Below, one piece after another: positions 35,565 to 41,405 of a DNA stretch of 64,000 bases (the first letter of the stretch is position 1; every line of letters begins with the position of its first letter). The notes under the pieces are model-generated. The model was not told the DNA's origin. It saw only the letters and a program-made list of their open reading frames with translations, and searched no databases. The stretch covers positions 62,001-126,000 of the forward strand of contig NZ_JYNS01000012.1 in assembly GCF_000934725.1 (NCBI RefSeq). Direction: 5' to 3'. This DNA is from Methyloterricola oryzae. GTDB lineage: Bacteria; Pseudomonadota; Gammaproteobacteria; Methylococcales; Methylococcaceae. Both the position numbers and the translations under genes were made by a program.

Positions 35565-35741
35565 TTGGCCGCATGATCCGCTGCAGGTCGTGAGGCGTCA
35601 AGCCATTCACGGCTCATCCGCCAAGCGTCCACCGAACTTTCCTGTAGCGCATCCTCAGGCAGATCGAATCCGGTGTCGAATTGGCCCAACTCCATTCGAC
35701 TAATGAGCAGATGGCAACCCGAACACAGTGTGGAGAACCCG

Positions 35742-36098
35742 ATGAAATATCTGTGTCTCGTCTACAGCGAAGAGGAAAAATTGCACACCCTGCCGGAAAG
35801 CCCTCAAGACATTGAATGTCTTGCCTATGCGCAATCCTTGCGTGAGAGCGGGCACTTGATCGGCGGTGAGGCCCTGGAGTCGGTACAAACGGCAACGACG
35901 GTGAGGCTCAGGAGTGGCAAGTTGTCCATCAACGATGGCCCCTTTGCCGAAACCAAGGAACAGTTGGCCGGATTCTATCTGATCGAAGCCCTCGATCTGG
36001 ACGAAGCCATCCGAATTGCCGCCGGGATTCCCCCAGCCCGTGTGGGCTGCGTTGAAATAAGGCCGGTACGCCGATTGAACGCCCCGAGCGAAGGATAA
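35742..36098 (+). CDS. DGPF (YCII-related) domain protein
   Basis: A 118-residue protein starting MKYLCLVYSEEEK with the family motif NDGPFAETKEQLAGFYLIEA and IEIRPV-type end (VEIRPVRRLN). The fold is a dimeric alpha/beta barrel of YciI type; the biochemical role is unknown, but these proteins are the usual companions of ECF42 sigma factors. The ATG at 35742 follows TGGAGAA. It opens a run of genes on the plus strand that ends with the ECF42-type sigma factor at 38200. Confidence 0.9.
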   Translation: MKYLCLVYSEEEKLHTLPESPQDIECLAYAQSLRESGHLIGGEALESVQTATTVRLRSGKLSINDGPFAETKEQLAGFYLIEALDLDEAIRIAAGIPPARVGCVEIRPVRRLNAPSEG

Positions 36099-36208
36099 GG
36101 TCGAACGCAATGCGTCCCAGCTGTCGATTTGGCTGGCGGTAAATCGACTACTTGTCGCGCGGCGCCGAGCCGCACACCATGACAACACGCAAATGCGAGG
36201 TTACTGCC

Positions 36209-36649
36209 ATGCGATTCATGATTCTGATCAAGGCCGATGAAAACACCGAAGCCGGGGTGATGCCAAGCGAGGCCATGCTGACGGAGATGGGCCGTTTCAA
36301 CGAGGAACTGGCAAAAGCCGGCATCATGCTCGGAGGCGACGGGCTTACACCCAGCAGCCGGGGCGCTCGCGTGTTGTTTACCGGCGACGGGCAAACCGTG
36401 GTTCCCGGGCCCTTTCGCGAAACCCGCCAATTGGTGTGCGGCTTCTGGCTCTGGGAGTGTCGGTCGCTTGAGGAAGCCATCGCTTGGGTCCGACGCTGTC
36501 CCAAGCCCTTGCTGGGTGATGCGGAAATCGAAATTCGTCCACTGTTCGAGATGGAGGATTTCGGCTCCGAACTTACGCCAGAACTTCGGGAACAAGAAGC
36601 GCGGCTGCGCGTCGCGGCGGAAGACCGGGCCAGGTCCCGGGGAAACTGA
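36209..36649 (+). CDS. DGPF (YCII-related) domain protein, second paralogue
   Basis: A 146-residue relative of the previous gene: MRFMILIKADENTEAG, LGGDGLTPSSRGARVLF, PGPFRETRQLVCGFWLW and IEIRPLFEMEDFG. The motif is PGPF instead of DGPF. The C-terminal tail after EDFG is charged and probably helical. I start at 36209, where MRFMILIK matches the family; the frame is open further upstream but without similarity. Confidence 0.88.
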   Translation: MRFMILIKADENTEAGVMPSEAMLTEMGRFNEELAKAGIMLGGDGLTPSSRGARVLFTGDGQTVVPGPFRETRQLVCGFWLWECRSLEEAIAWVRRCPKPLLGDAEIEIRPLFEMEDFGSELTPELREQEARLRVAAEDRARSRGN

Positions 36650-36758
36650 ATACCCAACTCAAAACTGCAGGAGGAATCTTATTGCATACCGGTTTCCGCT
36701 TCGGCGTGACGAAGCCTGAAAACCGTAAGCCAATCGAAACTGATAAGGGAGCAAACCC

Positions 36759-37286
36759 ATGATCGAATTTATGTCCATCCTCGCAATAGCCCTCGCCACC
36801 TTGCTCATCTATGCGGCCACCAAGCCCGACAGCTTCCGCATCGAACGCAGCACCCGGATAAAGGCGCCGGCCGATCGGATCTACGATCTGGTCAACGACC
36901 TCCACGCCTGGAGCCATTGGTCGCCCTGGGAAAAAAAGGATCCGGCCATGAAGCGAACATTCAGCCATGTCGCCAGCGGCATAGGTGCCAGCTATGCCTG
37001 GGAAGGTAATAAGCAGGTCGGCATGGGCCGCATGGAAATCATAGAGAGCTCGCGACCGACCAAGATCGCGATCCAACTGGACTTCTTCAAACCCATGAAA
37101 GCTCGCAACACGTCAGAATTCAGCTTCGACGAACAAGCCGGAGAGACTCGCGTCGTCTGGGCCATGTTCGGTCCCATGCCTTACCTTTCAAAAGTGATGA
37201 CCACCTTCTTCAGCATGGACAAGATGTGCGGAAAGGACTTCGAGGCGGGACTGGCGCAACTCAAATCCGTCGCCGAAATGCCATGA
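36759..37286 (+). CDS. SRPBCC (START-like) family protein
   Basis: A 175-residue protein with an N-terminal hydrophobic helix (about residues 1-20) and a helix-grip domain beginning IERSTRIKAPADRIYDLVNDLHAWSHW, the polyketide-cyclase-2 type start. Such domains bind hydrophobic ligands. AAGGGAGC precedes the ATG. It lies inside the DGPF/ECF42 cluster, where SRPBCC proteins often occur; the job is unknown. Confidence 0.9.
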   Translation: MIEFMSILAIALATLLIYAATKPDSFRIERSTRIKAPADRIYDLVNDLHAWSHWSPWEKKDPAMKRTFSHVASGIGASYAWEGNKQVGMGRMEIIESSRPTKIAIQLDFFKPMKARNTSEFSFDEQAGETRVVWAMFGPMPYLSKVMTTFFSMDKMCGKDFEAGLAQLKSVAEMP

Positions 37287-37298
37287 GGGAGCGATGAG

Positions 37299-37706
37299 AT
37301 GAAATATTTATGCCTGGCGTACGAATCGGAAGCCACCCTCGATGCTCTGAATCCCGAAGAATGGGATGCCTTGCGCCGTGAAACGCTGGATTACGTGGAA
37401 ACACTCCGCGGCAATGGCCGCCTGATTGCGGCAAACGCCCTTCAAAGCGTCCGAACCGCGGCGACGGCGCGGGTCCGGAATGGCAAAGCCATGATAACGG
37501 ACGGCCCGTTCGCAGAAACCAAAGAGACTTTGGGCGGCTTCTTTTTGATCGAGGCAACCGATATGAACGACGCGATCCAGATGGCATTGAAATGGCCCTC
37601 GGCGCGTATCGGCAGCATTGAGGTACGCCCCATCGAGGAAACACTCCGGCTGGAGAGCCGCTATGGCGGAATTCAGGGATCAAGCCACCGGAGTTCCACC
37701 TCATGA
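37299..37706 (+). CDS. DGPF (YCII-related) domain protein, third paralogue
   Basis: A 135-residue protein close to the first DGPF gene: MKYLCLAYESEATLDAL, ITDGPFAETKETLGGFFLIEA, IEVRPIEETLRL. GGGAGCGATGAG precedes the ATG. Its stop overlaps the start of the next gene (ATGA), so it is coupled to the VOC protein. The last 15 residues are not conserved. Confidence 0.9.
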   Translation: MKYLCLAYESEATLDALNPEEWDALRRETLDYVETLRGNGRLIAANALQSVRTAATARVRNGKAMITDGPFAETKETLGGFFLIEATDMNDAIQMALKWPSARIGSIEVRPIEETLRLESRYGGIQGSSHRSSTS

Positions 37707-38179
37707 CGCAAAGAATCACGCCCTTTCTCTGGTTCGACACCCAGGCCGAGGAAGCCATGCACTTCTATGTCTCGGTATTCAAGAACTCGCGCGTAGGCTC
37801 CATCACACGCTACGGGGCTGCCGGTCCAGGACCTGAAGGTTCGGTCATGACCTGCACCTTCGAACTCGAAGACCAGGAGTTCGTCGCCCTCAACGGCGGC
37901 CCCCATTACGCGTTCAGCCCCGCCATTTCCTTTGTTGTCAATTGCGCCACACAGGACGAGGTGGACGAACTCTGGGAAAAGCTCTCCGCCGGCGGCAAGC
38001 CTGTCCAATGCGGTTGGCTGACCGACCGCTTCGGTGTGTCCTGGCAGATCGTGCCATCGGTGCTAGGCCATCTGTTGAACGACCCGGACTCGGCCAAATC
38101 ACAACGCGTCATGCGAGCCATGTTGGGCATGACCAAACTGGACATCGCCGCATTGCAATATGCCTGCGAGCGGCCCTAG
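37703..38179 (+). CDS. VOC superfamily (PhnB-like) protein
   Basis: A 158-residue protein starting TQRITPFLWFDTQAEEAMHFYVSVFKNSRV with ALNGGPHYAFSPAISFVVNC and DRFGVSWQIVPSVLG, the pattern of PhnB-like VOC proteins often labelled 3-demethylubiquinone-9 methyltransferase domain. It is probably a small metal-binding or ligand-binding dimer, not a methyltransferase. It lies between the third DGPF gene and the sigma factor, as in many ECF42 loci. Confidence 0.9.
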   Translation: MTQRITPFLWFDTQAEEAMHFYVSVFKNSRVGSITRYGAAGPGPEGSVMTCTFELEDQEFVALNGGPHYAFSPAISFVVNCATQDEVDELWEKLSAGGKPVQCGWLTDRFGVSWQIVPSVLGHLLNDPDSAKSQRVMRAMLGMTKLDIAALQYACERP

Positions 38180-38199
38180 CCAGCCATAGCGAGCTTTCC

Positions 38200-39468
38200 A
38201 TGGAACAAAAAGGGAAGCAGGATATCGCGGAGGTGGTAGCCGCCATCTACCGGACAGAATCTCGCCGCGTCTTCGCTACCCTGGTCCGGTTGCTGGGCTA
38301 TTTCGACCTGGCCGAGGAAGCCCTGCATGACGCCTTCCGCGCAGCATTGGAGCAATGGCCCAGTCAGGGGATCCCCTGCCAGCCTCGGGCCTGGCTGGTC
38401 TCGACGGGTCGGTTCAAAGCCATCGATGCCCTGCGACGCCGGGCCCGATTTGAGCCATTGGATGATGCAGCCGACACTATCGATCCACGCAGCGAGCAGG
38501 AGACTGCGTGGATGGATAACGATGTGGAAGACGACCGACTGCGTCTGATCTTTACTTGCTGCCACCCTGCCCTGGCGCCCGACGCTCGCATCGCCCTCAC
38601 CTTGCGTGAAGTGTGCGGACTTACCACCGAAGAGATCGCCCGCGCCTACCTCGCGGCAGTGCCAACCATGGCCCAGCGCATCGTGCGCGCCAAGGCCAAA
38701 ATCCGCGACGCGCGCATTCCCTATCAGGTCCCGGCTCGGGAGGAACTGCCCGAGCGGCTGGATGCGGTTCTGCGCGTGGTGTATCTGGTCTATAACGAAG
38801 GCTATTCCGCCTCATTTGGAAACTCCTTGACCCGAGGCGATCTTTCCGATGAAGCGATTCGGCTCGGCCGCTTGATCGTCCAACTCATGCCGGAAGCGGA
38901 AGTCTTGGGTTTGCTGGCGCTGATGCTGCTGCATGAATCCCGTCGTCAGGCCCGGACTGCGCCTAACGGTGAACTGATCCTTTTGGAACGGCAGGATCGC
39001 CTCCTATGGGACTCCGCCAAAATTGCCGAAGGCATCGCTTTGCTGGAACAAGCACTGAACTCACCCCGCTTCGGGCCTTACACGCTTCAAGCCGCCATCG
39101 CCGCCGTGCACGCGGAAGCGCCAAGCAGCGGCGATACCGATTGGCCCCAAATCGTAGGTTTATATGACGTACTGATGCGAATCGACCCTTCGCCGATCAT
39201 CGCGTTGAACAGGGCGGTGGCGTTGGCAATGCGCGACGGCCCCGCAATCGGCCTTACTCATGTCGACGACCTCCTGGCACAGGGCGAATTGGCAAACTAT
39301 CACCTCGCTCACGCCGCCAGGGCCGACCTATGCCGGCGACTGGGCAGAATTGCCGCCGCGCGTGAGGCCTACGAGCGTGCCCTCGAACTCGCCAGGCAGG
39401 AACCGGAGCGACGGTTTCTGCTCAGTCGGTTGCAGGAGTTGGCAAGGCATCCCGGCGGTGAGCGGTAA
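38200..39468 (+). CDS. RNA polymerase sigma factor of the ECF42 type
   Basis: A 422-residue sigma factor. Region 2 is RTESRRVFATLVRLLGYFDLAEEALHDAFRAAL and QPRAWLVSTGRFKAIDALRRR; region 4 is LTLREVCGLTTEEIARAYLAAVPTMAQRIVRAKAKI. It continues with the long C-terminal extension of this group (VYLVYNEGYSASFG, LLALMLLHESRRQAR, helical repeats to the end), thought to replace an anti-sigma factor. ECF42 genes are known to sit beside DGPF genes, as here, where three of them precede it. I use the ATG at 38200, 20 bases after the VOC stop; the frame is open further upstream but only as an overlap. Confidence 0.93.
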   Translation: MEQKGKQDIAEVVAAIYRTESRRVFATLVRLLGYFDLAEEALHDAFRAALEQWPSQGIPCQPRAWLVSTGRFKAIDALRRRARFEPLDDAADTIDPRSEQETAWMDNDVEDDRLRLIFTCCHPALAPDARIALTLREVCGLTTEEIARAYLAAVPTMAQRIVRAKAKIRDARIPYQVPAREELPERLDAVLRVVYLVYNEGYSASFGNSLTRGDLSDEAIRLGRLIVQLMPEAEVLGLLALMLLHESRRQARTAPNGELILLERQDRLLWDSAKIAEGIALLEQALNSPRFGPYTLQAAIAAVHAEAPSSGDTDWPQIVGLYDVLMRIDPSPIIALNRAVALAMRDGPAIGLTHVDDLLAQGELANYHLAHAARADLCRRLGRIAAAREAYERALELARQEPERRFLLSRLQELARHPGGER

Positions 39469-39520: not shown

Positions 39521-40723
39521 TCAGAGCGAAAACAGCTCACGCAGCAATTTCAAGAATTTGGGCCCGACGCCTTTGACCTTCGAGACATCTTCAAACGTCG
39601 AAAACGGCCTTGCGGCGATGATGCTTTCTGCTGTCTTTCTGGGCACGCCTTTCAAGGATGCCAATTCATCCAGTGTCACTTGATTGATGGACGCACCAGT
39701 GACCGTGCTGGCGCTTTCCACCGGGCTGGGCTCGCTGACTTGGGCCGGTGACCTTTTGCCGTCCCCGAAATTGACTGTGATGACATTGTCCTGATCGCCG
39801 CGCACCGCAATGCCCTTCTGCTTCACGACATAAGGGGCAGCAAAGTTGATGGCATCCTGCGTAATGTAAGCACTACCGTCCCACTCACGCAGCATCAGGC
39901 TTAGATACCAGGTACCCTCGGGAGCTTCGTGAAAATCTGCCTGAACGTTAAGATCCTGCACGAACTGCTGACCGTGAACCTGCCCGATGCTAACCCCAGC
40001 CAAGGCAAAGCCCTCAAAGTAGCCACCTTGATAGGGCTGATGAAGGGCCCACAATTCCAATGACAAGGTTCCACTGATATTGCCCGACTGACGTCGGCTG
40101 ACAATTTCGCCAACATTCATGGAAATTCGGTTGTTCTGCAGGTCATAGCCACAGTTGCCTTGCAGAAGCAAGTCACCCGGCACAGGTCTGGTGCCATGGG
40201 ACTGAATGAGGGACTCGTTGCTGATCCAATGTCCCGTTTGGGCGTCAAAGTTGGCGGACTTCGTCTGCTCCACGAAGCTGACATGGGTCACCGCCTGATT
40301 GCCGTATACCGCTTGCCCAGGGCGAGAATCGGTTCTGTAGGGGAGCGCGAAATTCACAAAGTCGCGGGTCTCAAAAGCGCTTCCGTTCCATTCCCGCAGC
40401 ATCAAGGTGAGCTGCCAGGAACCTGCGGGTGGTTCCTGGAATGCCAGGTCCCACGTGCTTGGGCCAATGACGTGCTGGCCCCGCAATTCGCCGATGGCTA
40501 TTCCCGCCAAGGGGATTCCGCAAAAATCCAAGCCCCGATAGGGTTCATTCAAGGCCCAAAGCTCGAGGGACAGGGTCCCGCTGAGATTTCCCGATGGGCG
40601 ATTACTGAAAATTTCCCCAGTATTCAAGATAAGACGATTATTTGTAATTGTATAACCGCTCGTGCCATTAAACCCCAACTCTATCGATTGGGGATAGGTA
40701 ACCAGATTTTGGATTGCATGCAT
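39521..40723 (-). CDS. Protein with two tandem beta-rich repeats and a helix-hairpin-helix tail
   Basis: A 400-residue protein with no signal peptide. Residues about 1-128 and 180-300 are two copies of one domain; conserved in both are NxGEI.S.RxSGNxSGTLSLELWAL, then PY.G, LAG..IG...GQ, and TLMLREWNGSAF versus SLMLREWDGSAY, ending NFA.PY. After a Ser/Pro-rich linker (about 315-340) comes a ComEA-like helix-hairpin-helix pair: INQVTLDELASLKGVPRK and STFEDVSKVKGVGPK. The tail suggests DNA or protein binding by two HhH motifs, while the repeats look like a beta-sandwich. I know no family with this arrangement. It is convergent with the sigma factor gene and has no strong ribosome site. Confidence 0.85.
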   Translation of the reverse strand: MHAIQNLVTYPQSIELGFNGTSGYTITNNRLILNTGEIFSNRPSGNLSGTLSLELWALNEPYRGLDFCGIPLAGIAIGELRGQHVIGPSTWDLAFQEPPAGSWQLTLMLREWNGSAFETRDFVNFALPYRTDSRPGQAVYGNQAVTHVSFVEQTKSANFDAQTGHWISNESLIQSHGTRPVPGDLLLQGNCGYDLQNNRISMNVGEIVSRRQSGNISGTLSLELWALHQPYQGGYFEGFALAGVSIGQVHGQQFVQDLNVQADFHEAPEGTWYLSLMLREWDGSAYITQDAINFAAPYVVKQKGIAVRGDQDNVITVNFGDGKRSPAQVSEPSPVESASTVTGASINQVTLDELASLKGVPRKTAESIIAARPFSTFEDVSKVKGVGPKFLKLLRELFSL

Positions 40724-41108: not shown

Positions 41109-41405
41109 ATGGCAACTTGTAATGGTCGTACCGTTCTTGTCTCGATTATCACTGCTTGCGCACTGCTGGCGCCGTTGAGTGCCGCCCAGGCCCAAGGGAA
41201 ATCCGGCGCGAACAGCGTTGCTTTGGATGCTCAAAGTCCTGCCATCAAGAACCTTTCCGCCCGCGGAAGCATCGCGAAGGTGCCGGGAACCGTGCAGCAA
41301 ACCCGCAATCTTTCCGCCAGGGGCAGTCTGGCGCAGGTGACGCCGACTCAGAAGAACGAGCCGAAGGCGACCTTGAATGCCGCAGCCGATATGGCTGGTC
41401 TTTAG
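41109..41405 (+). CDS. Small exported protein with an internal repeat
   Basis: A 98-residue protein: signal peptide (ISIITA-type core to AAQAQ), then a short mature part in which NLSARGSIAKV is repeated as NLSARGSLAQV about 20 residues apart, ending ADMAGL. GGAAGGAG before the ATG is a strong ribosome site. The mature chain is polar and has no Cys. I do not recognise a family. Confidence 0.78.
   Translation: MATCNGRTVLVSIITACALLAPLSAAQAQGKSGANSVALDAQSPAIKNLSARGSIAKVPGTVQQTRNLSARGSLAQVTPTQKNEPKATLNAAADMAGL

Follow-up and report, generated by a model that had tools for sequence, protein, structure and literature searches.

A conserved family of proteins joining Ig-like beta domains to a ComEA-type helix-hairpin-helix tail, with a member in Methyloterricola oryzae: candidate nucleoid adaptors

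A 64,000-nucleotide stretch of the Methyloterricola oryzae genome (RefSeq assembly GCF_000934725.1, contig NZ_JYNS01000012.1, positions 62,001 to 126,000 of the forward strand; hereafter the window) contains a gene for a 400-amino-acid protein, in which two acidic beta domains, predicted to be immunoglobulin-like (Ig-like), precede a basic tail of two helix-hairpin-helix (HhH) motifs resembling ComEA. This architecture is that of a conserved family and not a one-off. The family is apparently undescribed, judging from literature searches alone, in which no account of an Ig-like and HhH family was found. We tentatively propose, with a probability of about 0.4, that the protein is a cytoplasmic adaptor tethering a partner to the nucleoid by means of a DNA-binding tail.

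In the proposed mechanism, one or two acidic Ig-like beta-sandwich domains would bind the partner, and a flexible linker, often rich in Lys, Ala and Pro, would space them from the basic ComEA-type (HhH)2 tail. The tail would bind DNA without sequence preference, and would thereby tie the partner, which could be a storage granule, a protein assembly or another large body, to the nucleoid.

Domain architecture and predicted folds

The signature of the beta domain is found at residues 44-58 of the first copy (SGNLSGTLSLELWAL) and at residues 213-227 of the second (SGNISGTLSLELWAL), and both copies of the LMLREW(N/D)GSA motif are present as described in a first-pass annotation of the window. Alignment of domain 1 with domain 2 gave a score of 342, compared with a mean of 29.7 (standard deviation 4.9, maximum 52) for 1000 shuffles, which bears out the annotation's claim of two tandem beta domains with a shared signature. 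The second domain is the best conserved part across the family, with S217, G218, E223, L224, W225, E280 and W281 invariant in 73 rows.

Structure prediction, one of the checks proposed in the first-pass annotation, yielded an Ig-like sandwich for the beta domain. The AlphaFold model of the second domain alone comprises eight strands, with a predicted local distance difference test score (pLDDT) of 93.5 and a predicted template modelling score (pTM) of 0.84. For the full protein the mean pLDDT is 79.6 and the pTM 0.45, the latter being expected because the modules sit on flexible linkers. In Foldseek and VIA-align comparisons the predicted domain falls with Ig-like sandwiches from a wide range of families (GH2, Asf1, RhoGDI, arrestin). 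The best solved matches are GH2 enzymes, with Z 8.6 (root-mean-square deviation, rmsd, 8.8; 120 residues aligned) and Z 8.4 (rmsd 3.6; 102 aligned), and myelin-gene regulatory factor, Asf1, Wzt and others lie within 1 Z of them. A Z of about 8 with less than 20% identity identifies the fold class only, and no ligand can be read from the fold matches. A search of PDB sequences with the beta-domain profile returned nothing convincing, and no Pfam model covers the domain in any of the 73 family members scanned. Across Pfam, NCBIfam, PHROGs, PADLOC and PDB sequences, the domain is covered by no named family.

The modules differ sharply in charge. The isoelectric point (pI) of the window protein is 9.7 for the tail vs 5.0 and 4.7 for the beta domains, and the family medians over 75 loci are 9.9 for the tail vs 4.6 for the beta domain. 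Some family linkers are Lys/Ala/Pro-rich (one of the 73 members matches Pfam HC2), and linker pI exceeds 9 in 43 of the 73 loci having a value; the short linker of the window protein is not visibly basic. Inspection of the protein sequence revealed no hydrophobic N-terminal leader, in agreement with the signal peptide having been reported absent. Coordinates of the features are given in Table 1.

Table 1. Features of the Ig-like and HhH protein gene (positions in the window)
Feature	Positions	Strand	Basis
Gene for Ig-like and HhH protein, 400 amino acids	39521..40723 (stop codon included)	-	Open reading frame call, ATG start; full-length relatives
First beta domain, residues about 9-135, predicted Ig-like sandwich	40319..40699	-	Profile match; AlphaFold strands 16-125, pLDDT mostly 70-95
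Segment between beta domains, residues 136-182, low confidence	40178..40318	-	pLDDT <50 at 135-159 and 165-181
Second beta domain, residues about 183-305, predicted Ig-like sandwich	39809..40177	-	pLDDT mostly 87-97 in full model
Flexible linker, residues 306-342	39698..39808	-	Low pLDDT around 310-340; relatives Ala/Pro/Lys-rich, often basic
ComEA-type double HhH tail, residues 343-396	39536..39697	-	Pfam HHH_3 E 1.3e-9; structural match 2duy
Hairpin 1, residues 358-365 (KGVPRKTA), second Gly of G-h-G replaced	39629..39652	-	Family tail alignment
Hairpin 2, residues 384-391 (KGVGPKFL), canonical	39551..39574	-	Family tail alignment

The HhH tail

The tail had been described as a ComEA-like double HhH, and this description is upheld. 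Its HHH_3 match (residues 343-396, E 1.3e-9) exceeds the Pfam cut-off, HHH being matched as well, and the solved structures closest to it include the ComEA proteins 2duy, 8dss and 8dfk; for the ComEA-related 2duy, Z is 8.6 and rmsd 2.1 over 63 residues, with 36% identity. In the window protein, hairpin 2 retains the G-x-G-x-K pattern. Among 40 aligned family tails, this hairpin has Gly at both places of G-x-G in all 40, with Lys or Arg before it (column 46) in 39 and after it (column 51) in 40, and five positions around this hairpin are Lys or Arg in 75-100% of the tails.

In a survey of 398 genomes with the tail profile, 41 gave matches at E<=1e-14. Among the matches listed, the window protein is the only open frame longer than 160 amino acids; the others are about the size of ComEA. 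Further tail matches at E<=1e-6 in 27 family-holding genomes are, by size only, mostly similar to ComEA or to Tex (about 780-1010 amino acids). The genome of the window also encodes a ComEA-like protein of its own (L099 1396-1749, minus strand, contig C3), with a leader-like start, a degenerate hairpin 2 (VKGIKAATI) and no Gly at the first position of hairpin 1.

Family distribution and evolution

When 101 genomes were searched, comprising the window's own and 100 related ones, matches came from six besides it, five of them holding true relatives and one (G043) matching in the HhH part only. Both beta domains are present in two of these five (57 and 56% identity, same order, full length), and a single one in the other three (45-47%). 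A profile search with the repeat, also proposed in the first-pass annotation, found 84 relatives in 84,980 species genomes with a profile built from nine domain copies; 80 of them were kept for locus analysis and 73 members were scanned with Pfam. The relatives occur in Methylococcales, Oceanospirillales, Zoogloea, Competibacter, Dechloromonas, Malikia and a few Verrucomicrobia. The family is rare, being present in 2 of 369 genomes of the class and 2 of 398 genomes of the phylum, with the window's own counted in both. The sole further genome of the phylum survey (G632) holds a divergent relative whose HhH-like tail was judged by eye. In a Methylobacter metagenome-assembled genome (MAG), a two-domain gene (L016 7932-9157) is split over two frames, by either a frameshift or an assembly error.

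The combination of domains had looked new; its uniqueness is not supported, as the tail is in frame with the beta domain in 75 of the 80 loci, and Pfam HHH_3 is matched by 71 of the 73 members. The five loci without an HhH tail belong to Competibacter (L041, L046, L047, L051) and Pseudoalteromonas denitrificans (L088). In L047 and L051 the HhH motifs are replaced by a short C-terminal stretch ending in IFGR(F/L)WKR(L/F)GF, and the end of L041 is similar. This W/F-rich end is possibly a membrane or granule anchor. As a shared sorting tag it was rejected, since a 32-residue query from the tail of L041 matched nothing but its own kind across six Competibacteraceae genomes; the next best match had E 0.07, and the rejection holds at that sensitivity.

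Comparison of two relatives of the same order (L003 and L004) gave nonsynonymous and synonymous divergences of dN 0.032 and dS 0.261 (dN/dS about 0.12), which indicates that the gene is under purifying selection. In a tree built from 133 retained columns of 134 domain copies, with many of its forks unresolved, both window copies group with the Methylomonas copies and two of three Methylobacter pieces (support 99/85). A second, separate group of 47 rows (100/100) is made up of degenerate first copies from Zoogloea, Competibacter, Malikia, Verrucomicrobia and other members. From these two groups it follows that the domain was doubled at least twice. The first copy of the second group has lost the signature, and the tree places the window's pair in a duplication separate from the betaproteobacterial one. 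One locus labelled as a Chitinophaga pinensis MAG (L089) groups with Malikia, which suggests a misassigned contig.

Proposed function and alternatives

The tail probably binds DNA, because it has a basic pI, a canonical hairpin 2 with conserved Lys or Arg, and a precedent in ComEA. PMC3879209 reports that the HhH motifs of Vibrio cholerae ComEA bind DNA in vitro and in vivo; that in E. coli the wild-type ComEA, and not its lysine-pair variants, goes with a compacted chromosome; and that replacement of glycine 60 by alanine is harmless, while valine or glutamate is harmful. The second half of the proposal also has models, as PMC13052382 describes PhaH of Caulobacter, with a granule-binding N-terminal part and an HhH tail, and PhaM, PhaF and AlgP, in which other DNA-binding tails bring granule and nucleoid together in one protein.

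Several observations weigh against a DNA-bound adaptor. The second glycine of hairpin 1 is replaced by Ser, Pro or Asn in 36 of the 40 family tails, and the same column is Gly in all 30 tails of a ComEA-like comparison set (29 loci from the tail-profile survey and the ComEA-like protein of the window genome). The column that we take to correspond to K63 of V. cholerae ComEA, relying on the profile alignment and the ComEA hairpin and not on a direct alignment, is basic in none of the 40 family tails; Lys or Arg is rare there in the ComEA-like tails as well (17% of 30). The PsbU model is matched by 39 of the 73 members (E<=0.01), and this photosystem II protein with HhH motifs is not known to bind DNA. 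Finally, four Competibacter members lack the HhH tail, so DNA binding is not indispensable.

The PsbU matches, the altered hairpin 1 and the tailless members would suit a tail that binds protein, like that of PsbU or of GspK from type II secretion, in which case the protein would be a scaffold or assembly factor acting off the DNA; T2SSK is matched by 12 of the 73 members (E<=0.01). However, the tail is strongly basic, its hairpin 2 is canonical with conserved Lys or Arg, and ComEA chains outscore PsbU in the tail profile (72.7, 54.1 and 49.5 vs at most 27.8 bits), which makes this explanation unlikely, if the most credible of the alternatives. A nucleoid-shaping protein, with Ig-like domains that oligomerise and tails that bridge DNA, would agree with the duplication of the beta domain on two separate branches, as avidity would favour, and with the Gram-positive ComEA, where, according to PMC9747964, (HhH)2 is paired with an oligomerisation domain that transformation requires. 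Against it stands the sporadic distribution: one of 397 other genomes in the phylum sample and one of 368 in the class sample hold the family, fewer than a core nucleoid protein would lead one to expect, and we find such a role quite unlikely. We attach hardly any weight to a competence factor, whether a variant ComEA or a protein that receives incoming DNA in the cytoplasm: the tail is indeed most similar to ComEA, but no signal peptide is visible, a distinct ComEA-type gene with a leader-like start is present in the genome, and competence and pilus families are missing from the most frequent neighbour families.

Storage granules as the partner require separate consideration. Polyhydroxyalkanoate (PHA) granules were considered first, as suggested by PHA-storing hosts. 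The 47 family-holding genomes comprise 21 with a strong, 6 with a weak and 20 with no PhaC_N match; a TIGR01836-type protein occurs in 7 of the 26 genomes without a strong PhaC_N match, in two of them over the cut-off (the window genome's partial match not counted), which brings the genomes with a PHA synthase or a related protein to 28 of the 47. These 28 genomes, and the joining of a granule-binding part to an HhH tail in PhaH (PMC13052382), would speak for a PHA-granule phasin of the PhaH type. On the other side, PhaC_N matches nothing in the window genome, nor in any of the 11 further methanotroph genomes tested, the sole TIGR01836 match of the window genome is weak and partial (E 2.2e-4), and Phasin_2 was not found there. 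No phasin model is among the 15 Pfam families matched by the 73 members (E<=0.01), and no HhH-tailed phasin was recognised among the tail-profile matches of the 27 family-holding genomes, most of which are known by size only. As no PHA synthase was found, the PHA-granule version of the adaptor is rejected for the window organism, barring an unrecognised synthase, and is possible elsewhere, and a phasin identity is very improbable for the protein. The glycogen marker PF08323 is present in 33 of the 47 genomes, so neither polymer is common to all; a PHA-synthase-type or PF08323 match occurs in 46 of them (all except G501, of 2.7 Mb), from which we draw no conclusion. A general nucleoid tether for a non-PHA inclusion (e.g., glycogen or polyphosphate) built on a new Ig-like binding domain, in which exchange of the HhH tail for the W/F-rich Competibacter end would redirect the protein from DNA towards the surface of a membrane or granule, seems decidedly improbable.

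Genomic context

The gene is a stand-alone one, convergent with a sigma-factor gene (38209-39465, plus strand). The region 5' of it has one promoter-like match, which is not above chance (2 found in the region, 1.4 expected). No recurring neighbour was observed: 79 flanking proteins from 44 loci matched 101 Pfam families, none of them in more than two proteins, and the orientation of flanking genes is even (23:21 upstream, 23:20 downstream). In BLAST clustering of the neighbours (80 loci and 20 kb of the window), the larger conserved clusters are mainly among Zoogloea-type loci, and a cluster spanning 53 loci is the gene's own antisense shadow. The flanks examined thus gave no hint of the partner, and the lack of an operon tie fits a self-contained adaptor.

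Other origins and roles were discarded. Phage records, plasmids and viral contigs contain no relative of the beta domain, the weak plasmid matches covering the HhH end only, and a defence role was rejected with no PADLOC match.

Nearby, positions 41109-41402 encode a small protein of 98 amino acids with a leader-like start and a near-repeat (LSARGSIAKV ... LSARGSLAQV), without a Pfam match. The plus-strand cluster at 35673-39465 includes three YCII-domain genes, a polyketide-cyclase-like gene, a 3-dmu-9_3-mt gene and the sigma factor, which has DUF6596 and a TPR-like C-terminal part and which resembles the ECF42 type.

Comparison with known systems

The protein of P. denitrificans (L088, 7332-9608) repeats a homologous beta domain five times in tandem (E 8e-19 to 9e-22); unlike the window protein, it has a leader-like N-terminus, a hydrophobic C-terminal segment and no HhH, and it is apparently an exported cousin. 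The hosts of the family include methanotrophs, Zoogloea and Competibacter, all of practical use, and no Pfam model exists for its main domain; if the tail binds DNA, naming the partner would show what these cells must hold on the chromosome.

With ComEA the window protein shares the double HhH tail (Pfam HHH_3 and the 2duy match) and a profile match to ComE operon protein 1 chains. ComEA, however, is exported and short, whereas the window protein has no visible export signal, carries Ig-like domains and lacks the second glycine of hairpin 1; nor does it reach the NCBIfam cut-offs for ComEA, scoring 33.4 vs 152.35 bits for comE and 30.8 vs 53.1 bits for TIGR00426.

If the tail does bind DNA, the family would represent a further way of fastening bodies to the nucleoid, besides PhaM, PhaF, PhaH and AlgP. 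We know of no other nucleoid tether with an Ig-like binding module. PhaH of Caulobacter crescentus, compared by its description in PMC13052382, is similar in combining an N-terminal binding part with an HhH tail tying it to the nucleoid; it differs in being a phasin on polyhydroxybutyrate (PHB) granules, while the N-terminal part here is a predicted Ig-like sandwich and the search of the host genome gave no PHA synthase. The likeness to PhaM, PhaF and AlgP, as the same paper presents them, would lie in a single protein binding both granule and nucleoid.
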